Positions 2,111 through 56,498 of a DNA stretch of 64,000 nucleotides are shown one piece after another. A program made the position numbers and the translations under genes. The DNA is taken from contig CP073746.1 in assembly GCA_024397995.1 (NCBI GenBank), forward strand, positions 930,001 to 994,000. Direction: 5' to 3'. The notes beneath the pieces were generated by a model that searched no databases, had not been told where the DNA came from, and saw only the letters and a program-made list of their open reading frames with translations. The first letter of the stretch is position 1, and each line of letters opens with the position of its first letter. The DNA is from a bacterium SCSIO 12827. GTDB lineage: Bacteria > Pseudomonadota > Alphaproteobacteria > Rhodospirillales > Casp-alpha2.

Positions 2111-2117
2111 TGGCGGG

Positions 2118-2150: not shown

Positions 2151-2476
2151 CCCTGAGTCACCAGATAATAGCCGCTGCCCGCGAAATGGGGCAGGGGGCT
2201 GAGCTTGGCCAGCAGACCCTTGCGTCGGAGATCGAGCAATAGACGGCCGATGGGCTGGAACAGGGTTTCCCCCGTGTCCGGCCCGGCCGGGTCCAACCGC
2301 ACGATGACCGAACGTGCCGCGCGGAACCGCGACCGTTCGATCATACGTTTCACGGATTCCGTGGCATGGGCAAGGTCGAGCCCGCAGAGGTCGAGCTCGT
2401 ACTCTGCCGTGTCGTCGTACCCGACCAGGCGTTTCAGGTCGACGTCGTCCAATTCGGGCAGGTCATCATCGGCCAC
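2132..2476 (-). CDS. small protein with degenerate Smr-like domain
   Basis: A 114-residue protein from a GTG start 15 nt after the HAD dehalogenase stop, so probably co-transcribed with it. From residue 27 the pattern LDLCGLDLAHA...VKRMIERSR...SVIVRLDPAG...HFAGSGYYLV follows the order of an Smr (MutS2 C-terminal) domain: DLHG, an amphipathic helix, a hydrophobic strand and a closing Gly-rich strand. The His of DLHG is Cys here and the HGxG loop is LDPAG, so nuclease activity is unlikely. The Smr relationship is my inference from pattern only. No confident function. Confidence 0.6.
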   Translation of the reverse strand: MADDDLPELDDVDLKRLVGYDDTAEYELDLCGLDLAHATESVKRMIERSRFRAARSVIVRLDPAGPDTGETLFQPIGRLLLDLRRKGLLAKLSPLPHFAGSGYYLVTQGKKPDA

Positions 2477-2491
2477 GCTTGGGTTTCCTCG

Positions 2492-3223: not shown

Positions 3224-3378
3224 GCTGCGACCTCCGTCTTGGTATGCCCACCCCGGCAATTCACATAGCGGGTTCTGGGACGGGATGCCAGCGTCGCTGT
3301 CGGGTGGTGCGGTCACGCAGATGTGCGGGCTGTTGCCTGCGGGAATCGCTTTACGCCGTTCCTACGGCGGTGTTTCAT

Positions 3379-4233
3379 ATGTTCATGGGCACACGTGGAT
3401 GGGCGGCGTGCGTGGCGGCAATGCTGACGATGGCGGCGCCGGGCGAGGCCAAAGAGGCCAAGGACGTCGACCTTGAACTGGTGCTGGCCGTGGACGTTTC
3501 GGGCAGCATCGATGATGACGAAGCGCGTTTGCAGCGCGAAGGTTTCGCCACGGCCATCACCAACCCGCATATCATGCGTGCCATCCGTTCGGGCCCCTTG
3601 GGCCGGGTCGCCGTGATGTATGTGGAATGGTCGGGACTGGACCGCCACCACATTGTCGCCGACTGGACCGTGATCGCCAATGAAAGCGACGCCCGCGACT
3701 TCGCCGAAACCATATCCGACGGGTCGCCGTTCCGCGGGCAGTGGACCTCGATCTCAAACGTCATCGACCAGAGCATGAAGTATCTGGAGAACAGCCCTTA
3801 CCGGGGCGCGCGCCGGGTCATCGACATTTCCGGCGACGGCGAAAACAACAACGGCGATCCCATCATGGGGGCCCGCGACCGCGCCATCGCCGCCGGTGTG
3901 ACCATCAACGGTCTGCCCATCATCAACGGGCGCACCGGCCCCAACGGCATGGCGCCCCCGGAAGACCTGGACGGTTATTACCGGGATTGCGTGATCGGCG
4001 GGCCGGGGGCGTTCCTGGTGGTCGCCCGCGGGTTTTCCGACTTCGCCCGCGCCATCCGGCGCAAGCTGTTTCTGGAACTGTCGGGCTGGCAGCCCGCCCC
4101 CCGGCGCGTGCGGGCAGCGCTGCGGCCGAAGGTTGACTGCCTGACCGGAGAGAAACGCACGCTCCGCGAATTGCAGGAACTGAATGACATCCAGAAGGAC
4201 CGATACAAGGGCGGGCCCTCGAAGGCGCATTGA
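3379..4233 (+). CDS. DUF1194 von Willebrand factor A-like secreted protein, copy 1
   Basis: 284 residues from the ATG at 3379 (a second ATG at 3385 is equally possible; no strong Shine-Dalgarno). An N-terminal signal peptide ends near APGEA. The VWA fold is marked by the MIDAS motif LAVDVSGSID (DxSxS), then VIDISGDGENNNGD (second metal-loop Asp), GVTINGLPI and the family-typical CVIGGPGAF near the C-terminus. The protein matches DUF1194 over its length. It is probably a periplasmic metal-dependent binding protein; no partner is known. It is followed 15 nt later by a paralogue, pointing to a tandem duplication. Confidence 0.88.
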   Translation: MFMGTRGWAACVAAMLTMAAPGEAKEAKDVDLELVLAVDVSGSIDDDEARLQREGFATAITNPHIMRAIRSGPLGRVAVMYVEWSGLDRHHIVADWTVIANESDARDFAETISDGSPFRGQWTSISNVIDQSMKYLENSPYRGARRVIDISGDGENNNGDPIMGARDRAIAAGVTINGLPIINGRTGPNGMAPPEDLDGYYRDCVIGGPGAFLVVARGFSDFARAIRRKLFLELSGWQPAPRRVRAALRPKVDCLTGEKRTLRELQELNDIQKDRYKGGPSKAH

Positions 4234-4248
4234 GGTAGGATAACGGCC

Positions 4249-5055
4249 ATGTGGATTATGCGTCTGTTTCCGATGGTCTTGGCGGCGCTCGTGGCAGGGA
4301 TGCCCGGCGCGGCCCGCGCCCTTGACGTCGACCTGGAACTGGTGCTGGCCGTGGATGTTTCCGGCAGCATCGAAAAAGACGAAGCCGAACTGCAGCGTGA
4401 GGGCTTCGTGCAGGCATTCCGCAACGAGGCCGTGATCCGCGCCGTCACCAGCGGCGAACACAAGCGCATCGCCGTCACCTACATTGAGTGGGCGGGCGTC
4501 AGCCATCAACGCATGGGCATTGACTGGCGCATCATCGACAGCGCCAAGGCGGCACATAACTTTGCCGCTGAGTTGTCCAATCTGCCCTTCGCCTCGGCAC
4601 TTTGGACCTCCATATCAGGGGCCATTGATTTCGGCATGGAGCGCCTTAGCGCCAGCCCCTATCGATCCAAGCGCCGGGTCATCGACATTTCCGGCGACGG
4701 CGCCAACAACCATGGCGAGGCGGTTCTGCCGGCCCGCGACCGCGCGGTGCGCCAGGGCGTGACCATCAACGGCCTACCCATCGTCAACGGCCGGCCCAGC
4801 CCCTTCGGCATGCCGCAGTTGCCTAATCTGGATTGGTATTTCGAGGACTGCGTGATCGGCGGGCCGGGTGCCTTCATCGTCGTCGCCGACGGTTTTGCCG
4901 ACTTCGGCCGTGCCATCAAGCGCAAATTGATTCGCGAGATCGCGGACCTGGGCGGGCCGAAGACGACGCGGGGCCTGTACCACCCGGCACGCCTCGACGC
5001 GCGCCCGCCCTGCGACGCAGGCGAACAACTGCTTCTGGAAATGGACGATACTTAG
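4249..5055 (+). CDS. DUF1194 von Willebrand factor A-like secreted protein, copy 2
   Basis: 268 residues with a signal peptide (MRLFPMVLAALVAGM core, cleavage near AARA). The same landmarks as its neighbour are present: LELVLAVDVSGSIEKDEA, VIDISGDGANNHGE, GVTINGLPIVNGR and DCVIGGPGAF. The two proteins share most of the VWA core but differ at both ends. Its TAG stop (5053-5055) overlaps the TAA stop of the convergent PhzF gene (5052-5054), so there is no room for a terminator between them. Confidence 0.88.
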   Translation: MWIMRLFPMVLAALVAGMPGAARALDVDLELVLAVDVSGSIEKDEAELQREGFVQAFRNEAVIRAVTSGEHKRIAVTYIEWAGVSHQRMGIDWRIIDSAKAAHNFAAELSNLPFASALWTSISGAIDFGMERLSASPYRSKRRVIDISGDGANNHGEAVLPARDRAVRQGVTINGLPIVNGRPSPFGMPQLPNLDWYFEDCVIGGPGAFIVVADGFADFGRAIKRKLIREIADLGGPKTTRGLYHPARLDARPPCDAGEQLLLEMDDT

Positions 5056-5945
5056 ACTTCGATCTCGCCGCGCATCACCGCCGCGCAGGCACCGCCGACG
5101 CGGATCGCCGTGACCGTGCCGCCGGCGACATCGGCCGCGGTTTCGATCAGCGACGGGCGGCCCATCTCGACCCCCTGGATGATCCGGTAATCATAACTGC
5201 CGTCGCCCGTCGTCAGCGTGCCGAGCAAACCCGTCAAGGCCGCCGCCGCCGCACCTGTGGCAGGATCTTCGGCAATGCCCAGGCCTGGTGCGAACATGCG
5301 CGCATGGAAGGTCCCGGGGGCATTGGGGGCGGGAACGTAGACAAAGATATGGCCGCCCATGGCGGGATGCCGGGCCATGACGTCGGCGTTGCCCCGGGCC
5401 CGGCCCAGAGCGTCGACTCCGTTCAGCCGGGCGATGGGAAAAGTCATGCCGGCGGACCCAAGCAGCGGCGGATGGGCCGAGGTATCGATATCGGCGGGGT
5501 CCAGGTTCACGCAGGCGGCGAAATCCGCGGGTGAGAATTCATCCGTGTGGGAAAACCCCTGGGGCGCCGTCAAGCGTGCCCCCACCGGTCCGTCCGGTCC
5601 CGTTCGGATGTCGACAAGGACCAGACCGGCCGCTTCCTCGAACCGCAGGATTGATCTCAGGGGCTTGCCGAACAGGCGGCCCTCGCGGGCCAGCACGAAG
5701 GCTGTGCCGACGTTGGGGTGCCCGGCGAAGGGCAGTTCACGGCCCGGGGTGAAAATACGCACGCGGGCCGTGTTGGCCGGATCCGCGGGCGGCAGCACGA
5801 AGGTGGTTTCCGACAGGTTGAATTCGCGGGCGACGGCCTGCATCGTGTCGTCGGAAAGGCCCTCGGCGTCCAGCACCACGGCCAGCGGATTGCCACCGAA
5901 GGCGCGGTCGGTGAACACATCGACGGTGGCGAAGCGGCGTTTCAT
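5052..5945 (-). CDS. PhzF family isomerase/epimerase-like protein
   Basis: 297 residues starting at [11 protein letters not shown]; the frame is open further upstream, but the family begins exactly here. The N-terminal half carries [11 protein letters not shown] and the active-site segment [11 protein letters not shown], whose Glu is the general acid/base of PhzF. The second half repeats the fold and contains [17 protein letters not shown], the Gly/Ala-rich substrate loop. PhzF proteins are diaminopimelate-epimerase-fold enzymes; the family spans phenazine biosynthesis and many uncharacterised isomerases. No phenazine genes are nearby, so a housekeeping isomerase of unknown substrate is more likely. 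Confidence 0.88.
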
Positions 5946-5982
5946 CACGGGGCCTGCATACAACTGACGGGCGACTTGAAAA

Positions 5983-5996
5983 TTGACCAAGGTCAA
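5983..5996. promoter_or_regulatory. candidate CRP/FNR-family operator
   Basis: TTGACCAAGGTCAA is a perfect inverted repeat (TTGACC/GGTCAA) in the divergent spacer between the PhzF gene and the PAS/chemoreceptor pair. TTGAC-N4-GTCAA has the spacing and half-site of FNR/Dnr-type regulators (TTGAT-N4-ATCAA), 85 bp upstream of the PAS gene start. Assignment is by pattern only. Confidence 0.35.
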
Positions 5997-6080
5997 CATC
6001 CGGTCAAGAAACACATTGTATGGGTACAGGGAAAAACCCCCGTATTTGTATAGGCTAGAGCCATTACCAAGAGGAGCCAA

Positions 6081-6605
6081 ATGACAAAAACATCATATGT
6101 AACCGGCAAGGAGGCCTTCTTCGGAGACGACGAGATCATCGTGTCGAAGACGGACCTTAAGGGGCACATCACCTATGCCAACGATGTGTTCCTGAAAATC
6201 GCCGGCTATACCGAGGCCGAGGTGCTTGGCCAGCCGCACAACCTTATCCGTCATCCCGACATGCCGCGCTGCGTCTACAAACTGCTTTGGGATACGATTT
6301 CATCAGGGGCGGAAATCTTCGCCTACGTGAAGAACCGCTGCAAGAACGGTGACCACTATTGGGTGTTGGCCCATGTCACGCCGTCGTTCGACGCGAATAA
6401 GGCCATCGTCGGCTACCACTCGAACCGCCGCGTGCCCGACCGCCAGGCGTTGGAGCGCGTGATCATCCCGCTGTACCGGGACTTGAAGAAAAGGGAAGAC
6501 GCCTTCGAGAACCGCAAGGACGGTATGAACGCCGCCTTCGATGACATCACCGCCCTGCTGCAGGGCAAAGGCGTCGCCTACGACGAATTCATCGCCACGA
6601 TTTAA
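6081..6605 (+). CDS. PAS-domain sensor protein, Aer-like
   Basis: 174 residues, with AGGAG at 6071-6075 before the ATG. A single PAS domain fills residues about 20-120: [32 protein letters not shown] and [13 protein letters not shown] are the signature of Aer-type redox PAS domains that usually bind FAD. No membrane segment or output domain is present. The C-terminal 50 residues are charged and helical. A soluble chemoreceptor gene starts 94 nt downstream, so this protein probably supplies its sensory input. FAD binding is inferred from family resemblance. Confidence 0.87.
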
Positions 6606-6699
6606 GTTTTCCCAATCTCTTTTTGCACAACCGCGCGACGCAGTACCGCGCACGCCCGTGCCTTTGGCCCGGCATACCAAGCCGAAGGAACGTCAGTCC

Positions 6700-7860
6700 G
6701 TGTTTATGTTCACCAACCACAAGAAGTCGAAAATCGCCGAGGCTTTGAGGGTCTGCAACGCCGTCGCCGACGGTGATTTCGAAGCCCGCATCATCGGGAT
6801 TAACGACCGTGACGGCGAGATCGCCGAACTTTGCCATGCCATCAACCGTTTGATCGACCGCACCGACGCCTATGTGCGTGAATCCACCGCCAGCCTGGAA
6901 TATGTCAGCCAGAACAAATACTTCCGGCGCATTCAGGAACGCGGCATGGTGGGTGCCTTCCGCACGGCGTCCCGGGCCATCAACACGGCCACGCAGTCGA
7001 TGCAGGACCGCATCAATGCCTTCCGCGAGGTGACCAGCGATTTCGAAACCCGCATGGGCGGCGTGACCGAGGCTGTGTCCGCCGCCGCGACAGAACTCGA
7101 ATCCTCCGCCGGCGCTATGAGCGCCACGGCTTCGGCGACCAGCGAGCAGGCGGCGACCGCCGCCAGCGCCGCCGACCAGGCGACCGCCAATGCGCAGACC
7201 GTTGCCTCGGCGGCGGAAGAACTATCGAGCTCGATCTCTGAAATCGGCCGCCAGGTCACGCATTCCACGTCGATTTCCCAATCGGCCGTGGCCCATGCCC
7301 GCGAGGCCGACACCCGCATCGAAAACCTGTCTCAAGGGTCGGAACGCATCGGGGAGGTGTTGAAGCTGATCGCCGATATCGCGGACCAGACCAATCTTCT
7401 GGCGCTTAATGCGACCATCGAGGCCGCCCGCGCCGGCGAGGCCGGTAAGGGGTTCGCCGTGGTCGCGTCCGAGGTCAAGAACCTGGCCAATCAGACGGCC
7501 AAGGCCACCGATGACATTGCGGTTCAGGTCGAGAACATCCAAACGGTGACCGCGGAGACGGTGACGTCGATCGCGGAGATCAGCGCGACCATCGACCGGA
7601 TGGAAGAGGCTGCCGCCAATATTTCCGCCGCCGTCGAGGAACAGGATGCGGCGACGCGCGATATCGCGGTCAATGTAGAACAGGCCGCCGCCGGCACGGC
7701 GGAAGTCACCCGTAACGTTTCATTGGTGACCGAAGGAGCGCAGGAAACCGGTTCCGCCGCCCAGCAGGTGCTGGCCGCATCGGGCGAACTGGCGCGGCAG
7801 TCGACCGTCCTGGAAAGCGAAGTTCGGGGCTTCCTGGATCGCTTGCGCGCGGTTCTTTAA
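6700..7860 (+). CDS. soluble methyl-accepting chemotaxis protein
   Basis: 386 residues from a GTG at 6700, which has AAGGA 10 nt upstream; the ATG at 6706 has no well-placed ribosome site. No transmembrane segment is visible. Residues ~5-60 look like a HAMP-type linker ([26 protein letters not shown]), then comes the coiled-coil signalling domain with the hairpin tip [20 protein letters not shown]. The protein would sit in cytoplasmic receptor arrays and signal through CheW/CheA. With the PAS protein just upstream, it looks like a split energy- or redox-taxis receptor. It ends 6 nt before the convergent gcvP stop. Confidence 0.9.
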
Positions 7861-7866: not shown

Positions 7867-10734
7867 TCAGTCGGCGGCGTCCGCGTAGGCCTCCAGCGGC
7901 GGGCAGGTGCAGACTACGTGGCGGTCGCCGTAAACGTTGTCGACACGGCCCACGGGCGACCAGTACTTACCGTGATAAAGCCCCGGCACCGGGAAGGCCG
8001 CCTGTTCGCGGCTGTAGGCATGGGCCCAGGCGCCGGCCGTCACCGTATCCACCGTATGGGGGGCGTTGACCAGGGGGTTGTCGTCGGCGGGCCAGTCACC
8101 GGCACCGACCTTTTTCGCTTCCTCGGCGATGGCGATCATGGCTTCGACGAAGCGGTCCAGTTCCTCCTTGGGTTCCGATTCCGTCGGCTCCACCATCAAC
8201 GTCCCGGCGACGGGCCAGGACATGGTCGGCGCGTGAAAGCCGTAATCGATCAGCCGTTTGGCGATGTCGTCCACGGTGATGCCGTGCTCGTCCTTCAGCG
8301 GTCGGGTGTCGATGATGCACTCATGAGCGACGAAGCCCAGCTTGCCGGTGTAGAGACAGTTGTAATACCCGGCCAAGCGCTTGGCCACGTAGTTCGCGTT
8401 GAGGATCGCGACCTGGGTCGCCCGCATCAGTCCTTCGCCACCCATCATGGCGATATAGGCCCAGGAAATCGGCAGGATCGACGCCGACCCCCAGGGCGCC
8501 GCCGACACGGCGCCCACGGTTTTGGCACCCCCGGCGGCGGGCACCACGGGACTTCCCGGAAGGTACGGCGCCAGGTGTTTCTTGATGCCGATGGGGCCGA
8601 CGCCCGGCCCGCCCCCGCCGTGGGGGATGCAGAAGGTCTTGTGCAGGTTCATATGCGCCACGTCGGGGCCGAAGGTCCCCGGGCGGCACAGGCCGACCAT
8701 GGCCTGCAGATTGGCGCCGTCCATGTAGACCTGACCGCCGTTGGCATGAATGATGTCGCAGATTTCCTCGATCGCTTCCTCGAACACCCCGTGGGTCGAG
8801 GGATAGGTGACCATCAGCGCCGCCAGCGCGTCCTTGTGCGTCTCGGCCTTGGCCTTGAGGTCGGCGACGTCGACGTTGCCGTGATCGTCGCAGGCGACGA
8901 CGACCACCTTCATGCCCGCCATGACGGCGGAGGCCGGATTGGTGCCGTGGGCGCTCGACGGGATCAGGCAGACGTCGCGCGCGCTGTCGCCGCGGGCCAG
9001 ATGATAAGCCCGGATGACGAGCAGGCCCGCGTATTCGCCCTGGCTGCCCGCGTTGGGCTGCAGGGACACTGCGTCGAAGCCCGTGATCTCGCACAGCATG
9101 CGTTCCAGGTCGTCGATCATTTCCTTGTAGCCCTGAACCTGATCGGCGGGCGCGAAGGGGTGAATCTGGCCGAACTCGGGCCAGGTGATGGGAATCATCT
9201 CGGCGGCGGCGTTCAGCTTCATGGTGCAGGAACCGAGCGGGATCATCGCCCGGTTCAGCGCCAGGTCCTTGCCTTCCAGTTTGCGCAGATAGCGCATCAT
9301 GGCGGTTTCCGACCGATGGCCGTGGAACACGGGATGGTCGAGGAAGCCCGTCGTGCGGGCGAGGTCCTTGGGAATGCCGCCGGGGGCGTCCAGGTCGAGC
9401 TTGGCGTCCGTGACGCCGAAGGCGGCGAGCACGGCCAGAACGTCTGCCTCATCCGTCGTCTCGTCCAACGCCATGCCGACCCGACCGTCACCGAAGTCGC
9501 GCAGGTTGATGGTCTTGGCCCGGGCCGCGGCGATCACCATGTCCGCCTTGCCCTTGTCGCCCAGGTCGGCGGTCAGGGTGTCGAAGAAGGTATCGTTGGC
9601 GAGCGTCACGCCGCCCGCCTTCAGTCCGGCCGCCAGGGCCGCCGTCAATTGATGGACGCGTCTGGCGATGCGGGTCAGGCCCTCGGGCCCGTGATAGACC
9701 GCGTACATGCCCGCGATATTGGCCAAAAGAACCTGCGCCGTGCAGATGTTGGATGTCGCTTTTTCGCGGCGGATGTGCTGTTCGCGGGTTTGCAGCGCCA
9801 TGCGGTAAGCGGGCTTGCCCCGGCTGTCGATGGACACGCCGATCAAGCGCCCGGGCAGGGTGCGCTTGAAAGCATCCTTGGCCGCCATGAAGGCCGCGTG
9901 AGGGCCGCCGAAGCCCATGGGCACGCCGAACCGCTGGGCCGAGCCGACGACGATGTCGGCCCCCCATTCCCCCGGCGGCATCAGCAGGACGAGCGACAAA
10001 AGATCCGCCGCCACGGTGACCAGCGCGCCCGCGTCATGGGCCTGTTCCGTCAGGGTTCGGAAGTCGCGGACGGCGCCGTCCGTCGCAGGGTATTGCAGGA
10101 CCAGGCCGTAAATATCGTCGCCCAGGCCCGCCAGATCCGCAAAGGGATCGCCGACTTTGACCGGAATACCGAGGGGAGCGGCCCGCGTTTCGATCACCGC
10201 GATGGTCTGCGGATGGCAGGCGGCGTCGACGAACAGGGTCTCACCCTTGGCCTTGCCGACACGCCGCATCAGGGTCATGGCTTCGGCCGCCGCCGTGCCT
10301 TCGTCCAACAACGACGCGTTGGCCAGTTCCATTCCCGTCAGGTCGATGATCGTCTGCTGATAGTTCATCAGGGCTTCCATGCGGCCCTGGCTGATTTCCG
10401 CCTGATAGGGGGTATAGGCCGTGTACCAGCCCGGGTTTTCCAGCACGTTGCGCAGGATCACCGGCGGTGTGATGCAGCCGGAATAGCCCATGCCGATCAT
10501 GGTCTTGGCGATCACGTTGCGATCGGCCATGGCGCGCAGGCGGGCCAACGCCTGGGCCTCGGACATGGGGGGGGCCTCATAGCCGCCCGGCTTCAGGATC
10601 GACGGCGGCACCGTTTTTACGGTCAGGTCGTCCAGGGTGGCGAGCCCCAGGGTCTTGAGCATGTCGTCGACCTCGCCCGGGCGGGGCCCGATGTGACGGT
10701 CGGCGAAGCTGTCGCCCGATTGCGATGCGGCCAT
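7867..10734 (-). CDS. gcvP: glycine dehydrogenase (decarboxylating), P-protein
   Basis: 955 residues, the full-length single-chain form in which the two homologous halves are fused. It decarboxylates glycine with pyridoxal phosphate and passes the aminomethyl group to lipoyl-GcvH. Recognisable segments are FADRHIGPR at the N-terminus, [18 protein letters not shown], the PLP-lysine region [19 protein letters not shown] and the C-terminal [18 protein letters not shown]. It is the last gene of gcvT-gcvH-gcvP, 29 nt after gcvH, and should share the glycine riboswitch control of the operon. Confidence 0.98.
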
Positions 10735-46893: not shown

Positions 46894-48696
46894 TCAACCC
46901 ACGATGCCGATGGAAATCCCGTCATCGGCACGTTTCGATTCCTTCTTCGTGACTGCGATCTGCTGCGCCAGATCATCGGGGGTGATGCCCCCTCGACCCG
47001 GTTTCAGGTGCATGACGGCGATGGACACGGATAGCAAGGGGAAGGTCCGCTCGACACCGCTGCGGTCTTTGGCGACGATTCCGCCAGCATCGCGGGCGGC
47101 CTTGTCGTAGAAGGTCTCGACCTGATGGCGGAACGACTCGCGCAGGTCCGTCAGACGTTCCCGCGCCTGGTTCAGGCCGATGCCGCGCCAGCCGGCAAAG
47201 AAATCGTCGCCGCCGATATGGCCCAGAAAGGCCCCGTCGGCGATGAAGGATTTCTTCAATAACTCCGCGAACAGAAGGATCGCCCGGTCGCCCTGACGGA
47301 ATCCGTAGGTGTCGTTGAACGGCTTGAAGTTGTCGAAATCGAAATAGGCGATGACCGCTTCGGTTTCGTCGTCGGCGACCAGATCGGTTACGTATTCGAC
47401 AACCATGTGATTGCCCGGAAGCTTGCTCAAAGGGTTGGCGTCCCGCGCCATGGCCAGATGCTTTTCGTTGACGACCTGAAGCAGCGACGCGGCGGTCAGG
47501 AAGCCGACGTAACGCAGGTTCTCGACCACGATGATCCCCTCCTGCGTGCCGGACAGGGAATATTTCTCCAGCACCCGTTCCGCATTGTCATGAATATCGG
47601 CCACGGGGCAGGGGCGGATGAATTCGTTGAGATGGCGCTTGTACGACACGTTGGCCAAGAGGTCCTTGCCATAGCGCGAATAGGTGAAGTCCTTCAGGTC
47701 TTCCTCGCGGGTGATGCCAAGCGGTTCATCCATGTCGTCGACCACGGGAAAGAAGGTCATGTTCTTGTTTTCGCGAAAATGCTCGAAGGTCGCCATAATG
47801 TCGCTGCTGTTGCGGATGGGGGCCGGCATGGACAGTTCCTGGTCGATGAAACGGCGGTCCGTCTCGCCCTTGCGCAGGTCGCGCACGCGTGGATAGGCGT
47901 CCCGCAGGTTGGTGCCCATGATCAGTGGCCGTTCGATGAAATAGCCCTGGATCAGGTTGCAGCCCATCTCCTTGCAGGTCAGCAGTTCCTTTTCCGTCTC
48001 CACGCCCTCGGCGATCACCGTGATGCCCAGGGTCTGGGCCAGGCTGACGACCTGCGACACGAACAGCTTTTTCATGCGGTCGGTCTCGATCCCGGAAATG
48101 AAGAAACGGTCGATCTTGATGTAATCGGGGTTTTGGTCGTACAGCAGCTTCAGCCCCGCGAAGCCGGTCCCAAAATCGTCGATGGCGATGCGGAACTGCC
48201 GGCGCCGGTAGATCTGTGCCAGGGTTTCGGTGTTGGAGACGTCACGGTCGATTTGATGGCGTTCGGACACTTCCAGGGTCACGCGCGCGGGTGCCAGGTT
48301 TGCTGCCCGGGCGGCCTCGACCGTGTCGACGGCACGATGGTCGTCGGTCAGCAGCACGCGATTGTCGATGTTCAGGAACAGGCGCACGGACGGCCCCAAG
48401 TCGAGGGCCGAAAACTGTTTCATGGCGCGTCCGCGCAGCAGGACCTCGACCTCCTGCAGAATGCCCATGCGGAAGGAGAAATCGAAAAAGGCGTGGATCG
48501 ACGTGAAGTCCAGGTCCTCCTGCCCACGCATCAGAGCCTCGACGCCGTAGAGATACCCCGTGTAGGGATTGATGATCGGCTGAAAGGCGAAGTGGACTTC
48601 CTCCCGCGCCCAGGTCAGAAACCGGGCGGTGGGATCTCTGGAGAGGCGGCGGGGTTCGGCAGTGGGGGCGTCGATGGTGGGGTCGGCGGGGTTCAT
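46894..48696 (-). CDS. EAL-CBS-GGDEF cyclic-di-GMP signalling protein
   Basis: 600 residues from the ATG at 48696 (GGAAG upstream). Residues ~25-265 form an EAL phosphodiesterase with intact motifs YGVEALMRG, RLFLNIDNR, LEVSERH, IAIDDFGTGFAGL, YIKIDRFF and VIAEGVETEKEL. A CBS pair (~275-420; FFPVVDDMDEPLGI, GIIVVENLRYVGFLT) follows, then a GGDEF domain whose signature is GGDDF (LGHIGGDDFFAG) and which lacks a clear I-site. The EAL domain is probably active; cyclase activity is possible but uncertain. The CBS pair may bind adenine nucleotides. Confidence 0.92.
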   Translation of the reverse strand: MNPADPTIDAPTAEPRRLSRDPTARFLTWAREEVHFAFQPIINPYTGYLYGVEALMRGQEDLDFTSIHAFFDFSFRMGILQEVEVLLRGRAMKQFSALDLGPSVRLFLNIDNRVLLTDDHRAVDTVEAARAANLAPARVTLEVSERHQIDRDVSNTETLAQIYRRRQFRIAIDDFGTGFAGLKLLYDQNPDYIKIDRFFISGIETDRMKKLFVSQVVSLAQTLGITVIAEGVETEKELLTCKEMGCNLIQGYFIERPLIMGTNLRDAYPRVRDLRKGETDRRFIDQELSMPAPIRNSSDIMATFEHFRENKNMTFFPVVDDMDEPLGITREEDLKDFTYSRYGKDLLANVSYKRHLNEFIRPCPVADIHDNAERVLEKYSLSGTQEGIIVVENLRYVGFLTAASLLQVVNEKHLAMARDANPLSKLPGNHMVVEYVTDLVADDETEAVIAYFDFDNFKPFNDTYGFRQGDRAILLFAELLKKSFIADGAFLGHIGGDDFFAGWRGIGLNQARERLTDLRESFRHQVETFYDKAARDAGGIVAKDRSGVERTFPLLSVSIAVMHLKPGRGGITPDDLAQQIAVTKKESKRADDGISIGIVG

Positions 48697-49023
48697 GGCG
48701 CTTCCGGTTGGTTGACGGCCCATGATGGTCGGGCGGGATATGGTTGAATGCGTCCCGATTTGTCGATGATTTTCGGCATAGGTCGGGAAATGTCCATGGT
48801 AATCACCACCTGAAATCAAAACTTCATACTCCGTTCATGGGGGGGCAGCCCGCATTGCCGTCGATGACCGTGAGGATGGATCCGGAGGGGGAATGCGGCG
48901 TCACGACGCAAAAGCATTCACATATTCTGGCATTCGAATATTATAGATTGTATCCGCGTCGCAGGGGATCACCCGCGCTTTGCGTGACGTGGTGAGGCGG
49001 TATTTGTATTCATTGGGGGCTCA
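48697..49023. other. divergent promoter region
   Basis: 327 nt between the EAL-GGDEF gene and a chemoreceptor gene. The one plausible plus-strand sigma-70 promoter is TTCACA (48917-48922) - 16 nt - TATTAT (48939-48944), in a short AT-rich stretch. No small gene is evident. Confidence 0.4.
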
Positions 49024-50997
49024 ATGACCAAATTGATCGACTTCAAGAAATTGAGTACGAAGTTCTTTGGGGCGACCGTGCTTCTGTTCGCCATCGCGGG
49101 GATCGTGATCGTCGTCATGAGCACGCGCAGCCTTGACCGGCTGAGCGCGATCATTGGCGAGGTCGATACGCTTCTGAGCCGCGAAAGTGCCGCCCTGCAA
49201 TCTGCCCATGCTGAGCGGTTGAAGGCGGAACAGGCCCGCGACCGAGCGGTGATAACCGCCGAGAACGCGAAAGAATTGGCCGCACGCCAGCAGCAGATCG
49301 CCGTCCGCGAAGCGGAACTACAGGGCTATTATCAGGGGGCTTTGCGCATCGTCGCGTCGCAGTTGGAATCCATCCTGTCCCCCATGAGCAAATCCGATCG
49401 GGAATTCTTTATTCTCGACGGATCGGTGTTCCTTACAGTGCTTGAGGGCGCCAATTCGATCGGGTTCTATCCGATCAGCGATCTCGACGGCCTGGCCGAC
49501 CTTGCCGACACGGAAGGGTTCGCGCCCGCGCGGGTCAAGACGTTCGAAAAGGTGATCAGCGACAATCTGGGCGTTGAAACCCCCTTTCTGGCCATCGACC
49601 GGGAGGCCGGCCTGATTCGCATCGCAGCCCTCATCGGTCCGACGGCGGAGCGCTTCGGCTTGATCGAAGTCATTCTTCAGGACCGCCTGACCCCCATGAA
49701 GACAGAGGCCCGCGAACTGGCTACGTCCTATGCGGCTAAGCTGTCGGAGCAATCGGCGGAACAGGACCGGCAGTTCCAAGCCCGGCTGGCGGAATTGGAA
49801 GCGCTGCGCAAGGCCGGTGAGGAAGAGCGTGCCCGGCAGGAGGCCCGGACCGCCGAAGAGGAACGCTCGGCCCGGCGCCTGTTGATCACGGCGGTGGTTC
49901 TGTCGTCCCTGTTCGGCGCGGTCGCCATCAGCGTGCTGGTCGTCAGGCTGATCACCCGGCCGCTTGGACGAAACGTCGCGATCATGTCGCGTCTGGCCGG
50001 CAATGACACGGATGTAGAGGTATCCGACGCCCACCGTACGGACGAAATCGGCGAAATGGCACAGGCGGTTCAGGTCTTCAAGGACAGTCTGATCGCGGCC
50101 GAACAACAGGCGGAGGAGCGGCGGGCCGAACGCGCGGCCCGCGAGGCCCGAGTCCAGAAGATCGAGGCCATGGCTAAGGAATTCGACGCCCAGGTGTCAG
50201 GGTCTCTCGACAACGTCAGTACCGCAACACGGGACATGCGGGCAACATCGGAGCAGATGTCTGGGGTCGCCCAGCAGACTGCTGATCAGACTAAATTGGT
50301 CACCCAGGCGTCGGAAACGGCGGCGGAAAGTGTGCAGACCGTGGCCACGGCGGCGGACGAGTTGAGCAAATCGATCACCGAGATCGCCGAACAGGCGGCG
50401 ACATCAAGTCAGGTATCCGAAGCGGCCGCCGGTCAGGCGCGCATGACGGACGAGAGGGTCCGGCGTCTGAACGATGCGGCGCTGAAGATTGGTGAGGTCA
50501 TTCGCCTGATCACCGACATCGCCGAGCAGACCAACCTTTTGGCCCTCAACGCGACCATCGAGGCGGCGCGTGCCGGAGAGGCTGGCAAGGGCTTCGCCGT
50601 GGTGGCGTCCGAGGTCAAGAACCTGGCCAATCAGACAGCCAAGGCGACCGAGGAAATCGCAGCCCAAGTCGCCAACATTCAAACGGAAACCGGCGACACG
50701 GTCCGCGCGATTGCGAAAATTTCAGAAAGTGTCGACCGAATGTGCGAAATCGCCGCCGGTATTTCCGCTGCGGTCGAGCAGCAGTCGGCGGCAACCCAGG
50801 AAATCGCCCGCAACACGGACGAGGCGACCACCGGTACCCGCCGCGCCAGCGACAGTACGGCCCAGGTCGCCAAGGCGGCGGCCGAAACGGAACAATCAGC
50901 CGCCGAAGTGTTGAAATCCGTCGATACCCTCGACCGGGAAGGGGACCGCCTGCGCCGTTATGTTACCGACTTCCTGGATCAGGTGCGCGCTGCCTGA
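49024..50997 (+). CDS. transmembrane methyl-accepting chemotaxis protein
   Basis: 657 residues. TM1 (~13-33, FFGATVLLFAIAGIVIVV), a ~250-residue periplasmic region that is strongly helical and charged at both ends (coiled-coil AELEALRKAGEEERARQEAR just before TM2), TM2 (~288-308, LITAVVLSSLFGAVAISVLV), HAMP, then the signalling domain with tip [20 protein letters not shown]. The sensory part shows no known ligand fold by eye. Receptor trimers would signal to CheA. It lies 77 nt upstream of the SpoIIE-type gene. Confidence 0.93.
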   Translation: MTKLIDFKKLSTKFFGATVLLFAIAGIVIVVMSTRSLDRLSAIIGEVDTLLSRESAALQSAHAERLKAEQARDRAVITAENAKELAARQQQIAVREAELQGYYQGALRIVASQLESILSPMSKSDREFFILDGSVFLTVLEGANSIGFYPISDLDGLADLADTEGFAPARVKTFEKVISDNLGVETPFLAIDREAGLIRIAALIGPTAERFGLIEVILQDRLTPMKTEARELATSYAAKLSEQSAEQDRQFQARLAELEALRKAGEEERARQEARTAEEERSARRLLITAVVLSSLFGAVAISVLVVRLITRPLGRNVAIMSRLAGNDTDVEVSDAHRTDEIGEMAQAVQVFKDSLIAAEQQAEERRAERAAREARVQKIEAMAKEFDAQVSGSLDNVSTATRDMRATSEQMSGVAQQTADQTKLVTQASETAAESVQTVATAADELSKSITEIAEQAATSSQVSEAAAGQARMTDERVRRLNDAALKIGEVIRLITDIAEQTNLLALNATIEAARAGEAGKGFAVVASEVKNLANQTAKATEEIAAQVANIQTETGDTVRAIAKISESVDRMCEIAAGISAAVEQQSAATQEIARNTDEATTGTRRASDSTAQVAKAAAETEQSAAEVLKSVDTLDREGDRLRRYVTDFLDQVRAA

Positions 50998-51074: not shown

Positions 51075-52847
51075 ATGTCTAATGCTCCCGCCCTGAACAT
51101 CCGCGATGCCGCCGCGGAGGATGCCCGCCGGTTCCAGGCCAACCTGGAGCTGCTGGCCGAGATGTCGCAGGATTTCGCTGCCTCGCGTGATCTGGATGCG
51201 GCCTTGCTCAAGGCTGTCGGGCATATCACGGATTCGGTCAATGCGGAGGGCGGGGCTCTGTTCCTGCTCGACGAGAAGGGAGAAAACCTGCGCTGCCATG
51301 CCTGCGTCGGGGCGACGGAAATCACAGGCCTGGTAATCGCCGCCGACAAGGGCATCGTCGGGCGTTCCGTGCAGAACAACCTGGGCGAGATCGTCCGCGA
51401 CGTGTCGAAGGACCCGAATTTCTTCGGCGGCGTCGACGAAAAGACCGGCTATACGACCAAATCCATCCTCTGCGCGCCGCTGACGGTAAAGGGCGAACGG
51501 ATCGGCGCCATTGAGCTGATCAACAAGCGCGGCGGCGATGGGCTGTTCAGCCCCGACGACCTGCATTTTCTCGAAGCCTTGGCCGCATCGGCGGCGTTGG
51601 CCATTCTCAATGCCCGCCAGGCGGACGCGCTGCTGGAACAGGAGCGCATCAAGCGCGAACTGGAACTGGCCCGCGAAATTCAAAGCTCTCTGCTGCCCCG
51701 GCAGCCCGGCGATGACGCGCCCATCGGTGGCGTCAATCAGCCCGCGCGCGAGGTTTCCGGTGACTTTTTCGACCACTTCCCGCTTGAAGACGGGCGCATC
51801 TGTTTTTGCCTGGGCGACGTCTCGGGCAAGGGTGTGAACGCGGCCCTGCTGATGGCCAAGACCGCCAGCCTCTATCGCTGTCTGGGCAAGGCCATCTTGT
51901 CGCCGGGCCGTCTGCTGGCCCTGGTCAACCGCGAGATTTGTGAAACCGCGGCGCGCGGCATGTTCGTGACCATGGTCGGCGGCATCTATGATCCGCGCAC
52001 GGGTGTGGTGACGTTGTCCAACGCCGGGCACGAGCCGGCACTGCTGCTGACGCCGGAAGGCGATTTTCAGGCTTTCGAGGCCGAGGGCCCACCGCTCGGC
52101 ATTCTCGCCGATCCGCCGACCAAGGACGGTTATCCGGAAACGGCGGTCGACCTGAAGGGCGGCAGCCTGTGGGTGTTCACCGACGGGGTGACGGAAGGCT
52201 ATGTTGATGACGCCGGTACGGAACTGGGCGTCGACGGCGTGAAAAGGATTCTTTTGGAAACTCGGGGCCAGACGCTGCGGGCACGGCTGGATGCCGTGGT
52301 CGGGGTTATCCAGCCGGGCGACGGCGGCATGCGCGACGACGTCACCCTGTTGGGTGTCAGCGATACGGCGGCCGAGCGGCCGGCGGCCCTGGCCGCCGCC
52401 GAGCGGGTGGCCGGCGGGTCGGAATCGATCATGTCCATGCGCCTGCCGGCGCGGGCGGATCGGCTGCGGGTCATCCGCCAGGCCGTGCGCGCGGCCTTGG
52501 ATTTCCTGACCTGTGAGGATGAAATGACCGAACAGGTCATCCTGGCCGTGGACGAAGCCTGCCAGAACGTGGTGCGCCATGCCTATGGCGGACGCGCCGA
52601 CGGCGAGATCGCGATCGAACTCCGCCGAGAAGGTGATGATTTCGTGGTCGAACTGCAGGATTTCGCGGCCCCCGTCGATACGGACCAGGTCAAGGGGCGC
52701 GATCTCGATGATATCAAGCCAGGCGGGCTCGGCGTTCATTTGATCCGTGAGATCATGGACGACGTTCAGTTCGTGACGCCTCCCGCCGGGGTGGGTAATC
52801 TGTTACAACTGCGAAAGCGGCTTCAAACAAAAGCCGGCGCATCTTGA
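51075..52847 (+). CDS. GAF-PP2C (SpoIIE)-HATPase partner-switching protein
   Basis: 590 residues from the ATG at 51075. A GAF domain (~30-180), a SpoIIE/RsbU-type PP2C phosphatase (~215-430; metal Asp in REVSGDFFD, LGDVSGKG, RDDVTLLG), and a C-terminal GHKL ATPase (~455-585; N box VDEACQNVVRHAYGG, G box GGLGVHLIREIMDD) as in RsbW/SpoIIAB kinases. Phosphatase and anti-sigma-type kinase in one chain would set the phosphorylation state of a STAS protein. Exactly such a gene follows 11 nt later, and then the mla operon. Confidence 0.93.
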   Translation: MSNAPALNIRDAAAEDARRFQANLELLAEMSQDFAASRDLDAALLKAVGHITDSVNAEGGALFLLDEKGENLRCHACVGATEITGLVIAADKGIVGRSVQNNLGEIVRDVSKDPNFFGGVDEKTGYTTKSILCAPLTVKGERIGAIELINKRGGDGLFSPDDLHFLEALAASAALAILNARQADALLEQERIKRELELAREIQSSLLPRQPGDDAPIGGVNQPAREVSGDFFDHFPLEDGRICFCLGDVSGKGVNAALLMAKTASLYRCLGKAILSPGRLLALVNREICETAARGMFVTMVGGIYDPRTGVVTLSNAGHEPALLLTPEGDFQAFEAEGPPLGILADPPTKDGYPETAVDLKGGSLWVFTDGVTEGYVDDAGTELGVDGVKRILLETRGQTLRARLDAVVGVIQPGDGGMRDDVTLLGVSDTAAERPAALAAAERVAGGSESIMSMRLPARADRLRVIRQAVRAALDFLTCEDEMTEQVILAVDEACQNVVRHAYGGRADGEIAIELRREGDDFVVELQDFAAPVDTDQVKGRDLDDIKPGGLGVHLIREIMDDVQFVTPPAGVGNLLQLRKRLQTKAGAS

Positions 52848-52858
52848 GGGGACTGGAC

Positions 52859-53179
52859 ATGAAGCACGAAGTCAAAGACGTGGGCGAATCCGTCGTGATC
52901 GCCTTCGAAGGTGACGTCGATCTGCAAACGTCGCCGAAGGCGCGCGAAGCCCTGCTGGCCACCGTCGGCCAAGGCAAGCCCGTGGTCGTCGATCTTGCCA
53001 AGGTCGGCTATATCGATTCGTCGGGCGTGGCCTCGCTGGTGGAAGCCTTGCAGACCGCTAAGAAGGGCGGCCAGACCTTGGCCCTGGCGGCGGTCAGCGA
53101 AGGGGCGCTTCGGGTGCTCAAGCTGGCGCGCCTCGACGCCGTATTCGCCATCCATGAGAACGTCGACGACGCCGTATAG
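52859..53179 (+). CDS. STAS domain protein (anti-sigma antagonist/MlaB-like)
   Basis: 106 residues from the ATG at 52859, behind GAGGGG. A stand-alone STAS fold with the phosphorylation loop GYIDSSGVASLVEA; S54 aligns with phospho-Ser58 of SpoIIAA. Position between the SpoIIE-type protein and mlaE admits two roles: antagonist in a partner switch, or MlaB, the STAS subunit that binds MlaF. The two may be the same. Typical MlaB proteins are shorter of clear phosphosite, so the intact DSSG here is notable. Confidence 0.9.
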   Translation: MKHEVKDVGESVVIAFEGDVDLQTSPKAREALLATVGQGKPVVVDLAKVGYIDSSGVASLVEALQTAKKGGQTLALAAVSEGALRVLKLARLDAVFAIHENVDDAV

Positions 53180-53215
53180 AGCCTGCCCTAGCCCAGCCGA
53201 CCGGAGAACCCGCGC

Positions 53216-54031
53216 GTGACGCCAACCGATGCCCGAAACCCGATCGTTGTAACGACCGAAAAGGTCGGCCGCGCCGCCGTCGCCGGGATCGAGGAAATCG
53301 GCCTGGGCGCCATGATGGTGGTGGAAAGCTTCTATTGGTTGATCTTCGGGCGGCGCGAAAAACAGGCCGTGCGCCTGGGCGCCATCGCGGAGCAATGCAT
53401 GGCCATCGGCATCCAGGCAGTGCCGATCATCGCCCTTCTTGCCGCGACCATCGGCATGATGCTGGCGATTCAAGGTATCCATACGCTGCGTATTTTCGGG
53501 GCGGAAAGCCGGGTCACCGTCGGCATTTCTTTTTCCGTGGTGCGTGAATTCGCGCCGCTGATCACCGGCATCGTCATCGCCGGGCGGTCGGGATCGGCGC
53601 TGGCCGCGCGCATCGGCACCATGAAGATCAATCAGGAAGTCGATGCCCTTTATGTCATGGGCATCAATCCGGTGCGCTTCCTGGTCGTGCCGGCCATGGT
53701 GGCCATGGTGATCATGGTTCCGGCGCTGACGCTGTTTTCCGATTTCGTCGGCCTGTTCTTCGCCGGGGTCTACGTCAATCTGGACCTTGGTATCTCGCTT
53801 GCCGCCTATATGGATCAGACCATCGACCTGCTCAGCGTCGATGACCTGATGCACGGGCTCGGCAAAAGCGTCATCTTCTCGGTGCTTATCGCCGTGATCG
53901 GCGTGGTCAACGGGGCTTCGGTCCAGGGCGGGGCCGAAGGCGTGGGCAAGGCGACGACGCGCGCCGTGGTGCAATCCATTTCGGCGATTATCGTGACGGA
54001 CATGCTGTTCGCTTTCGTGGTTACGCGATAA
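53216..54031 (+). CDS. mlaE: MlaE-type ABC transporter permease
   Basis: 271 residues from a GTG start, five or six helices. GRAAVAGIEEIGLGAMMVVE, TLRIFGAESRVTVGISFSVV and GRSGSALAARIGTMKINQEV followed by DALYVMGINPVRFLVVP are the MlaE/YrbE signatures. It forms the membrane dimer of the MlaFEDB lipid transporter in the inner membrane. 36 nt after the STAS gene and 10 nt before mlaF. Confidence 0.95.
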   Translation: MTPTDARNPIVVTTEKVGRAAVAGIEEIGLGAMMVVESFYWLIFGRREKQAVRLGAIAEQCMAIGIQAVPIIALLAATIGMMLAIQGIHTLRIFGAESRVTVGISFSVVREFAPLITGIVIAGRSGSALAARIGTMKINQEVDALYVMGINPVRFLVVPAMVAMVIMVPALTLFSDFVGLFFAGVYVNLDLGISLAAYMDQTIDLLSVDDLMHGLGKSVIFSVLIAVIGVVNGASVQGGAEGVGKATTRAVVQSISAIIVTDMLFAFVVTR

Positions 54032-54041
54032 GGACGGGGCC

Positions 54042-54872
54042 ATGACCGACAGCACCGCATCGACGCCCCGCAACGTGATCGAGGTTCGCGATCTGGTCAC
54101 CCATTACGGCGACCGCATGATCCTCAAGGGCATTTCGATGGACGTCCATGCCGATGAGGTGATGGTTATCATGGGCGGGTCCGGGTCCGGGAAAAGCACA
54201 CTTTTGCGCCATCTGATGGCGTTGGAACACCATACCTCCGGAACCATGCGCATCCTGGGCGAAGACATCGACAAGCTGTCGGGGGTCGAATTGGTCGAAC
54301 TGCGCCAGAAGCTTGGCGTGGCGTTTCAGGGCGGGGCCCTGTTCTCGTCCATGACCGTGGGCGAAAACGTCATGTTGCCGCTGTTCGAACATACGGGCCT
54401 TGACCGAAAGACCATGGAAATCATGGCCCGCATGAAATTGGAAGTGGTCAGCCTGGGCGGGTTCGAAAACCTGATGCCGTCGGAACTGTCCGGCGGCATG
54501 ATCAAGCGCGCGGCCTTTGCCCGCGCCATCGTCATGGACCCCAAAATCCTGTTCTGCGACGAACCGTCGGCGGGGCTGGATCCGGTCGTCGCCTCGGCGC
54601 TGGACGATCTGATCCTGCTGCTGCGCGACGCCCTGGGTATGACCGTGGTCGTGGTTACCCATGAACTGGAAAGCGCGTTCAAGATCGCTGATCGCATCAC
54701 CATTCTGGATCGCGGCGAAATTCTGTTCATCGGCACGCCGGACGAGCTGCGTGCCGACCCGTCGCAACGCATCCAGAACCTGTTGAACCGGGTGGCCGAG
54801 GACGACACCATGGACGCGGATGCCTACCTGAATCGACTGACGGGCGAACAGCCCGCCTACCGACCCCTTTGA
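54042..54872 (+). CDS. mlaF: MlaF-type ABC transporter ATPase
   Basis: 276 residues. Walker A MGGSGSGKSTLLRHL, signature SELSGGMIKRAAFARA, Walker B ILFCDEPSAGLDP and switch VVTHELESA. The GGMIKR signature rather than GGQ is characteristic of MlaF/Mkl ATPases. It powers movement of phospholipid between the membranes. The C-terminal extension RVAEDDTMDADAYLNRLTG is where MlaB contacts MlaF in E. coli. Confidence 0.95.
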   Translation: MTDSTASTPRNVIEVRDLVTHYGDRMILKGISMDVHADEVMVIMGGSGSGKSTLLRHLMALEHHTSGTMRILGEDIDKLSGVELVELRQKLGVAFQGGALFSSMTVGENVMLPLFEHTGLDRKTMEIMARMKLEVVSLGGFENLMPSELSGGMIKRAAFARAIVMDPKILFCDEPSAGLDPVVASALDDLILLLRDALGMTVVVVTHELESAFKIADRITILDRGEILFIGTPDELRADPSQRIQNLLNRVAEDDTMDADAYLNRLTGEQPAYRPL

Positions 54873-54897
54873 AAACCGACACGGTGAGAGCGAAGAC

Positions 54898-55896
54898 GTG
54901 AGAAGCAACAAGATAAACTATCTGCTGGTCGGCACCTTCGTTCTGGCCATGATCGCCGGGTTGATCGTCGCATTGTCCGTGCTGACGGGCCGCACGGGGG
55001 CGACGGACGCCTACCACGCTTATTATTCGAACGTCACCGGCGTGAAATTCGGAACCCAGGTCGTTTACGAAGGCTACCCCATCGGTCAGGTCGAGACGGT
55101 GACACCGGAGCCGTCCAAGGGCGGCATGCGATTCCGTGTCGATTTCGAGATCAACGAAGGCTGGAAAATCCCCAAGGACAGCAAGGTGGCGATTGCGGCA
55201 CCTGGCCTGCTCGCGGCGGTGACGCTGAGCATTTCCGCCGGTGCCAGCCCCGATGCCTTGGCGCCGGGATCGGAAGTCGCGGCGGTTGAAGGCGGCGATC
55301 TGTTCGCCGTCGTGTCGGGTGTCGCGGAAAAGCTGGGCGGGCTCAGCGACAACAGCATCGAGCCCCTTCTGGCCAGCGTTCAACGGGCGGTGAACAACGC
55401 CAACAAGCTTCTGGACAATCACGGCGAGGCCCTGGCCGGCGACCTCAAGGAAATGATCAACGAGGCATCGCAGTTGGTCGCCGACGTCAGCCGCCGCGTT
55501 CCCGTGGTCATCGACAACATGGAACTGATCGCGTCGGACGTGAAGTCGTTCAGCGGCGAGCTGAAGGCCGCCGCCACCCCGGCGAACCGCAAGCTGATCG
55601 AGGAGACGATCGCCAATCTGAACGGTGCGACCAAGGACGCCCGTGCCGCCATGGCCAACGGCGACAAGCTGATGACGACCCTGACCGACATGGTCGGCAA
55701 GAACGACGGTGACCTGCGGCGTACCATCAAGGACGCCCGCTATGTGGTCGAAAGCGTCGCCCGTCGCATTGACGCCATCAACGAAAACCTGGAAGGCATG
55801 TCGCGCAATATGTTGGAATTCTCACGCCAGATCAGACAAAGCCCCGGTCTGCTGCTGAACAGCAAGCCGGTCACCGATGAGGCACAGGCGAAATGA
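54898..55896 (+). CDS. mlaD: MCE-domain lipid-binding protein MlaD
   Basis: 332 residues from a GTG start. One N-terminal membrane anchor (YLLVGTFVLAMIAGLIVALS), an MCE domain (~40-120; YYSNVTGVKFGTQVVYEGYP, IGQVETVTPEPS) and a long helical C-terminal part, roughly twice the length of E. coli MlaD. It would form the periplasmic hexamer of the transporter; the extra helices may form a tunnel or tether toward the outer membrane. Confidence 0.92.
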   Translation: MRSNKINYLLVGTFVLAMIAGLIVALSVLTGRTGATDAYHAYYSNVTGVKFGTQVVYEGYPIGQVETVTPEPSKGGMRFRVDFEINEGWKIPKDSKVAIAAPGLLAAVTLSISAGASPDALAPGSEVAAVEGGDLFAVVSGVAEKLGGLSDNSIEPLLASVQRAVNNANKLLDNHGEALAGDLKEMINEASQLVADVSRRVPVVIDNMELIASDVKSFSGELKAAATPANRKLIEETIANLNGATKDARAAMANGDKLMTTLTDMVGKNDGDLRRTIKDARYVVESVARRIDAINENLEGMSRNMLEFSRQIRQSPGLLLNSKPVTDEAQAK

Positions 55897-56498
55897 GGAT
55901 GGCCATGATCCGACGATTATCCGCGCTGGCATTGGTTGCCGTCCTGACGGCTTGCGGCGGCAACGCCACGGTGCCGGAAAACCATTTCTACCGGCTTGAG
56001 GTCACGCCGCCGGAAGCACCGGGCAAGCGATTGATGGCGGGCGTGCTTGAGGTTGACCGTCTGCTTGCCGCCGGCGAATTGACGCAGCGTTCCATCGTCT
56101 ATCGCCGCGCCGACAACCCGCATCAGCTTCAGGCCTATCACTATCATTTCTGGAACGAAGCGCCGGGGGTTTTGCTGCAGGCCGAACTGGTCAGCTACCT
56201 GCGCGCCGCCGGCATCGCCGGCACGGTAGTGACGCCGGAAATGCGGGCTCGGCCCGACTTCGCGGTCACCGGCCGGGTGGAGAAGCTGGAGAGGGTGATC
56301 GACGGATCGAACGCCGGCGTCATCGAGATGAACCTTGTGTTGCGCCGGGTCAACGACGGCACGGTGCTGGTCGCCAAGACCTATACCCGTGAATTCACAC
56401 CCAAGGACGATGGCTTGACGGCCCTGGTCAAGGGATTCAGCGCGGCCGCCCGCGAGATCTTCAAGGCCTTCGTTAACGACATTGCCGCGCAAATCTGA
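55893..56498 (+). CDS. ABC-type transport auxiliary lipoprotein (PqiC family)
   Basis: 201 residues. Its ATG overlaps the mlaD stop as ATGA. A signal peptide ends in the lipobox LTACGG, so the mature protein is a lipoprotein, and HFYRLEVTPPEA with ELVSYLRAAGI and FAVTGRVEKLERVID fits the ABC_trans_aux/PqiC family. PqiC-type proteins sit at the outer membrane and dock MCE proteins; here it probably replaces MlaC/MlaA functions for this Mla system. Confidence 0.88.
   Translation: MRMAMIRRLSALALVAVLTACGGNATVPENHFYRLEVTPPEAPGKRLMAGVLEVDRLLAAGELTQRSIVYRRADNPHQLQAYHYHFWNEAPGVLLQAELVSYLRAAGIAGTVVTPEMRARPDFAVTGRVEKLERVIDGSNAGVIEMNLVLRRVNDGTVLVAKTYTREFTPKDDGLTALVKGFSAAAREIFKAFVNDIAAQI

Follow-up and report, generated by a model that had tools for sequence, protein, structure and literature searches.

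A partner-switching module joined to an Mpc-like lipid transporter operon in Alphaproteobacteria, and its possible role in gating the transporter

The genome of the alphaproteobacterium SCSIO 12827 is assembled as one 3.93 Mb contig (CP073746.1), of which a stretch of 64,000 nucleotides (positions 930,001 to 994,000, here called the window) was analysed. Six genes on the + strand of the window, at 51075 to 56498 (genome coordinates 981,075-986,498), form an operon in which a kinase/phosphatase gene and a STAS gene precede the genes of a lipid transporter of the ATP-binding cassette (ABC) type. A sequence-only reading of the window had claimed this gene set, its domains, the gaps between the genes (11, 36, 10, 25 and -4 nt, in order) and an intact DSSG phosphosite; all of these were confirmed by the open reading frames and Pfam. 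The first gene (51075..52847; ATG start, with an alternative in-frame GTG start possible at 51048) encodes a GAF domain (8.4e-13), a coiled coil, a PP2C domain of the SpoIIE/RsbU type (SpoIIE, 1e-39) and a HATPase_c_2 domain of the RsbW/SpoIIAB type (6.9e-26), and its product is here called the sensor protein. The HATPase part scored 59.9 and 54.7 bits against the RsbW models, both under the cut-offs. The second gene (52859..53179; an upstream in-frame TTG start is possible at 52844) encodes a free STAS protein (STAS, 1.6e-17) with S54 in D53-S54-S55-G56, which is proposed to be both an MlaB-like subunit and the substrate of the switch.

The other four genes encode the transporter. The MlaE/MpcE-like permease gene (53216..54031, GTG start) carries no fused N-terminal STAS domain; its 271-aa product matched PF02405 (MlaE) at 6.9e-69 and scored 208.2 bits against TIGR00056, slightly under the cut-off of 212.2. 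The product of the MlaF/MpcF-like ATPase gene (54042..54872; ABC_tran, 7e-30) has a C-terminal extension with Y-L-x-R-L, and its top matches among the sequences of solved structures are the MlaFEDB structures. The MlaD/MpcD-like MCE protein gene (54898..55896, GTG start) encodes 332 aa with a long C-terminal part, which matched PF02470 (4.1e-12) and scored 89.7 bits against TIGR00996, below the cut-off of 140.5. Downstream of mlaD lie a PqiC/MpcA-like auxiliary lipoprotein gene (55893..56498; PF03886, ABC_trans_aux, 2.3e-12; 26.4 bits against the PqiC model, below its cut-off of 200) and then an RNA methyltransferase-like gene.

A profile of the sensor protein was used to scan one genome per species (84,980 species), which gave at least 451 relatives; the best 80 loci were analysed. 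When the SpoIIE-STAS-mlaEFD order was surveyed, as the sequence-only reading had suggested, the gene after the PP2C relative encoded a STAS protein in 80/80 loci, and the PP2C-STAS-mlaE order recurred in 78/80. Of the two loci without mlaE, one lies on a contig that stops just after STAS (L095), and the other has ccmA at that place (L147). The ccmA gene of L147 is at 9291-10052, and its frame starts 276 bases after STAS. A strict automatic neighbour count gave STAS in 77 and mlaE in 75 of the 80, missing L087, L130 and L133, where the phosphatase and the kinase are in two frames (separate and overlapping in L130 and L133, split by an in-frame stop in L087). Pairwise identity among the 81 PP2C sequences, with that of SCSIO 12827 counted, has a median of 50% and never falls below 40%; at 70% identity the sequences form 39 clusters. 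Since the order is kept in so many diverged relatives, chance adjacency of the module (the sensor and STAS genes) and the transporter genes was ruled out. The pairing of module and transporter is real, widely conserved and, as far as the searched open-access literature shows, undescribed.

The flanking genes vary: a methyl-accepting chemotaxis protein gene is upstream in 2/64 loci with room, and RumA is downstream in 8/53. The closest named relative of the sensor gene among the matches listed is from Rhodospirillaceae bacterium UBA1479 (98% identity). The record titles among the 80 loci include Terasakiella brassicae, T. pusilla DSM 6293 (L129) and a Dongia mobilis metagenome-assembled genome (MAG), and also MAGs labelled Gammaproteobacteria (L140, L141), Thiotrichales (L145) and Sulfuriflexus (L150); the module-bearing bacteria are mostly uncultured. 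In SCSIO 12827 itself, a methyl-accepting chemotaxis protein gene (49024-50997) lies upstream of the operon and is adjoined by a gene for an EAL-CBS-like-GGDEF protein on the reverse strand (46894-48819).

The class was also surveyed in 385 evenly drawn alphaproteobacterial genomes. A PP2C relative (E <=1e-60) was found in 17/385, and in 12 of these 17 it is directly followed by STAS and mlaE. In G213, STAS-PP2C-HATPase is convergent with an adjoining mlaE-mlaF-mlaD-lipoprotein operon. The module is away from any transporter of the operon kind in G344 and G112, G155 has the GAF-PP2C part only, and a contig end cuts the locus in G007. The reverse search, with the operon MlaE of SCSIO 12827 as the query (E <=1e-50), matched 15/385 genomes, of which G122 was set aside as a STAS fusion. 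Among the 14 genomes left, the module is directly upstream of mlaE in 12 and adjoins it in G213, while G313 is cut at the contig end; the module is thus beside 13/13 MlaE genes of the operon kind with visible surroundings. The linked STAS is the sole STAS_2 (PF13466) match in G125, G053 and G213, although G053 is a draft of 87% completeness and a diverged STAS may escape the model. Outside the class, G516 carries the whole operon (398 genomes of the phylum).

Alignment of these proteins showed that the catalytic residues are kept. Aspartates D230, D248, D370, D421 and D422 of the PP2C domain, which presumably form the metal site by homology, are conserved in 81/81 sequences. The kinase residues N498, D529, G550, G551, L552 and G553 are found in 78/78 covering rows and the kinase-box E494 in 77/78, with an X in the remaining row. 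The STAS alignment has 97 rows (SCSIO 12827, the 80 loci and 16 from the class survey), with three stretches counted twice and with L053, L056/L147 and L066, which depart from the operon order, included. Its phosphosite reads DSSG in 95 rows, DSSC in one and ESSG in one, and both S54 and S55 are kept in 97/97. From papers and residue numbering, S54, the first of the two serines, is taken to be the counterpart of the SpoIIAA phosphoserine and of T52 in MlaB. For comparison, 20 long MlaE frames of other alphaproteobacteria were taken as possible STAS fusions, of which 11 are real (a STAS or STAS_2 match at E <=0.01 in 11/11, above the Pfam cut-off in 5); further fusions in G112, G007 and G122 are outside these counts. 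The fused domains read DTAG in 9 cases and DTTG or DSTG in the others, and the operon STAS as a phmmer query matched 0/11 of them. The remaining 9 long frames were merely long, with no fusion. A Foldseek search with the predicted sensor model of the relative L144 gave the RsbU-RsbW part of Rv1364c (3ke6_A) as the best match (E 3.6e-16, 375 columns); the root mean square deviation is 18.3, and therefore the domains match and their arrangement does not. Judged by these residues and domains, one chain could probably both add and remove phosphate on the STAS protein.

By its sequence, the MlaF tail suits an MlaB-like STAS partner that is a separate protein. A Y-x3-L pattern is present within the last 40 residues of MlaF in 69/69 complete loci among the 80 (63 as Y-L-x-R-L), whereas it occurs in 0/11 MlaF proteins beside STAS-fused MlaE and in 0/10 of those resembling a second, STAS-free MlaE-MlaF pair of the source genome (L003 and the 9 long frames without fusion). 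The E. coli residues Y261, L265 and L266 of MlaF are located at the MlaB interface (PMC7367683). A single-chain fold of the STAS protein and MlaF of L138 gave both parts mostly with a predicted local distance difference test score above 90, and a predicted template modelling score (pTM) of 0.65. A rough estimate with analyst-chosen errors placed the pTM at 0.56-0.67 for STAS on MlaF and at 0.46-0.55 for free STAS; a comparison of this model with the PDB covered the MlaF part only.

Two naturally occurring variants agree with the proposed mechanism. Tandem STAS genes lie between the kinase and mlaE in G059 and G354 (stretches L060:1279-2096 and L062:6147-7051). Both copies read DSSG; the first is altered in helix-2 (58 = E, 65 = R), and the A58/Q65 residues are kept solely in the copy adjoining mlaE. 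L140, from a MAG labelled Gammaproteobacteria (SZUA-186), has the PP2C-STAS module followed by mlaE (2.6e-74), mlaD (1.6e-21), mlaA (3e-70) and mlaC (4.1e-45) at 1717-6798, and mlaF was not matched on its 6.8-kb contig. The module has therefore also come to lie next to a Mla operon of a second kind. A further family of GAF-PP2C proteins (f189, 11 genomes), only distantly related, was not counted among the members, having no mla neighbours: within 1.5 kb on either side a mla gene was found in 0/11 and a STAS gene in 1/11, and five wider stretches (one a 3.7-kb contig) also had no mla gene.

In the rest of the source genome, 12 matches to sigma-70 region 2 were found, the nearest about 131 kb from the operon at 1,117,133, which bears out the earlier claim that no sigma factor gene is nearby. 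Partner-switching modules with outputs other than sigma factors are known, so the lack of a linked sigma target does not exclude partner switching. A separate mlaB gene, which the sequence-only reading had named as evidence that would speak against it, was also looked for. The genome has 4 STAS matches: the operon STAS, a 116-aa protein, and two inside long frames of 600 and 548 aa, which were taken as SulP-type from length alone. The 116-aa protein, a second free STAS at 2,290,710 (L069:4991-7058; about 2.289-2.291 Mb), is followed by a response regulator-HATPase_c_2-SpoIIE gene, and the two are the second partner-switch pair of the genome. The only other free STAS thus carries its own switch, and no clear second mlaB was recognised; this unlinked STAS may nevertheless serve as an MlaF partner in trans. 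A second MlaE gene at 1,419,542 is in the order alr-mlaE-mlaF (L003:4741-7437; 1.4187-1.4214 Mb), and neither STAS nor mlaD was recognised beside it. MlaE and MlaF of this L003 kind recur in 9 other genomes, with alr checked for L003 alone. The source genome also has two MlaD matches at 2.159 Mb.

From the conserved gene order and the residues described above, we infer a partner-switching module with an ABC lipid transporter, and not a sigma factor, as its output; this mechanism as a whole is modestly favoured. The unphosphorylated free STAS would act as an MlaB-like subunit: by binding MlaF at its helical subdomain and C-terminal extension, it would stabilise the MlaE2F2 lipid transporter in an assembled, active state. 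S54, at the centre of the predicted MlaF-binding surface, would be phosphorylated by the HATPase domain, so that STAS would be released; the PP2C domain, in the same polypeptide, would take the phosphate off again. The GAF domain and the coiled coil would set the balance between kinase and phosphatase by a cytoplasmic signal. The stricter form of the proposal, in which one GAF-PP2C-HATPase protein gates the transporter directly and post-translationally by phosphorylating and dephosphorylating the transporter's own STAS subunit, is held with only a slight lean in its favour.

Several observations weigh against this mechanism. The operon STAS resembles RsbV more than MlaB, as judged by profile scores: it scored 70.9 bits against TIGR00377 (anti-sigma-factor antagonist; cut-off 53.45) and 24.1 bits against NF033618 (MlaB; cut-off 90), for which even the unlinked STAS of the source genome scored higher (31.6 bits). 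However, NF033618 does not sort these STAS proteins, because that unlinked STAS outscores the operon one and all 4 STAS-MlaE fusion controls fail (3 without a match up to E 0.01, one with 16.6 bits). The Y-x3-L pattern was picked after the sequences had been viewed, and relatedness alone could yield it; moreover, it is absent from MlaF of G125 and its relative G313, and G213 has H for Y. The argument from pTM that STAS sits on MlaF is indirect, and a fold of the sensor with STAS (pTM 0.55) gave no indication of the domain to which STAS would bind. Four draft genomes (G344, G112, G007 and G155; completeness 81% for G112, 93% for G007 and 79% for G155) have a sensor relative without an MlaE of the operon kind; such MlaE genes as these drafts were found to have belong to the L003-like or STAS-fused kind. 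Since the sensor relative in G344 is unlinked and no such MlaE is there, some other target of the module probably exists, at least in that genome, and the G344 STAS shares the helix-2 signature of the operon. Conversely, G313 has the operon-kind MlaE, but a PP2C relative was not matched there at 1e-20; this genome is 86% complete, and its contig breaks off at mlaE. In E. coli, the MlaB T52A variant abolishes ATPase activity while binding is retained (PMC5016091); the hydroxyl therefore has a role of its own, and the invariance of S54 could reflect something besides phosphorylation. The link from partner switch to transporter drawn by the sequence-only reading is hence upheld by the joined module, the kept residues and the lack of a clear second mlaB, and is weakened by the fit of STAS to TIGR00377 rather than NF033618 and by the four drafts.

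The sensor relatives without a transporter of this kind also suit a conventional partner switch whose target, a sigma factor or other regulator, is encoded elsewhere. The HATPase would bind that unlinked regulator, STAS would antagonise it, and a shared role in envelope stress would be the sole reason for co-transcription with the transporter genes. The anti-anti-sigma superfamily as the best STAS match and the 12 sigma-70 region 2 matches of the source genome agree with it; yet no sigma gene is present within 130 kb, the module adjoins every visible transporter of the operon kind (13/13), and the STAS-mlaE joint is constant while the flanking genes vary. Such a switch would also leave the transporter without a recognisable MlaB wherever the linked STAS is the sole STAS_2 match, and would not account for the MlaB-type tail retained on MlaF; this explanation is considered rather unlikely. 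The direction of signalling might also be reversed, with STAS as a constitutive MlaB and a messenger that the transporter titrates, reporting its own state or amount to the HATPase and an unlinked target. A sensor-kinase in the operon suits either direction, and the tandem STAS genes of G059 and G354, where positions 58 and 65 differ in the first copy, suggest split kinase and transporter roles; but the loci examined showed no recognisable second target, the present data are silent on direction, and outward signalling seems improbable. It is less probable still that MlaF activation or the fold alone keeps S54 and S55 invariant, with a different STAS protein as the target of the kinase and phosphatase. 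The E. coli T52A variant, which loses ATPase activity without known phosphorylation (PMC5016091), speaks for this account, whereas module-bearing G125, G053 and G213 have the linked STAS as their sole STAS_2 match, and the 11 MlaE-fused STAS domains read DTAG (9), DTTG or DSTG rather than DSSG.

The proposed gating of the transporter by its STAS subunit, if true, would extend partner switching from the control of transcription to the direct control of a membrane transporter, and inter-membrane lipid transport would be turned on and off after translation by a cytoplasmic signal. The alphaproteobacterial MlaE would then occur in three designs, namely without STAS, STAS-fused, and with a switchable free STAS. 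Phospho-control of MlaB-type STAS subunits is an explicit open question in the available text of PMC5016091 and PMC7367683, and the operon offers a candidate kinase, phosphatase and sensor beside the substrate. As Terasakiella strains that carry a collection number (T. pusilla DSM 6293, L129) also have these candidates beside the substrate, the question is directly testable.

Among known systems, the transporter is closest to the Mla-Pqi chimeric (Mpc) system described in Brucella abortus (EMBO J 2025, PMC12436622). Both have MlaE-, MlaF-, MlaD- and PqiC-like genes in the same order, MCE proteins of similar length (332 aa here, 331 aa in MpcD) with long C-terminal parts, and an operon without mlaC (the source genome outside the operon was not searched for mlaC or mlaA). 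The STAS domain is fused to MpcE there, whereas here it is a free gene behind a kinase/phosphatase gene; the free STAS reads DSSG and the fused domains usually DTAG, and the C-terminal tail of MlaF differs. The operon is an Mpc counterpart with the STAS set free behind a kinase/phosphatase, as its gene content and order indicate. No kinase or phosphatase for the fused STAS is described in the available part of PMC12436622 (phosphatase occurs in its reference list; kinase was not searched for). The earlier assignment to Mla is thereby corrected: the transporter is of the Mpc rather than the E. coli Mla kind. E. coli MlaFEDB also has a free STAS with Ser/Thr at the same site and an MlaF extension with Y-x3-L, but the gene order there is mlaFEDCB, with MlaC (PMC5016091, PMC7367683); in the present operon a lipoprotein gene, not mlaC and mlaB, is downstream of mlaD.

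Control of MlaB by phosphorylation is an idea put forward in 2016 and 2020, with no kinase named as far as the available text of PMC5016091 and PMC7367683 shows, and the T52E mimic of E. coli MlaB binds MlaF more weakly (PMC7367683). The statement of the sequence-only reading that MlaB is not known to be phospho-switched thus needs the addition that the idea itself was already in print (PMC5016091, PMC7367683). Beyond these suggestions, no kinase or phosphatase tied to MlaB or a mla operon was found among the open-access literature matches listed; the words phosphatase and kinase are absent from a survey of MCE gene neighbourhoods (PMC5561183), and Mla, lipid and ABC transporter from a review of STAS-only proteins (PMC8256260). 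The PP2C, HATPase and STAS parts and their motifs are kept as in RsbU-RsbW-RsbV, SpoIIE-SpoIIAB-SpoIIAA and Rv1364c (3ke6); unlike the Rsb and SpoII partner switches, the module has lipid transporter genes as its neighbours and no sigma factor nearby. The SypE-SypA system of Vibrio fischeri likewise has a kinase/phosphatase whose substrate is a free STAS protein, apart from the classical sigma-factor circuit, with symbiotic biofilm formation as its output; its operon is not known to contain a transporter subunit. Partner switching itself is thus known, and what would be new here is the type of target.

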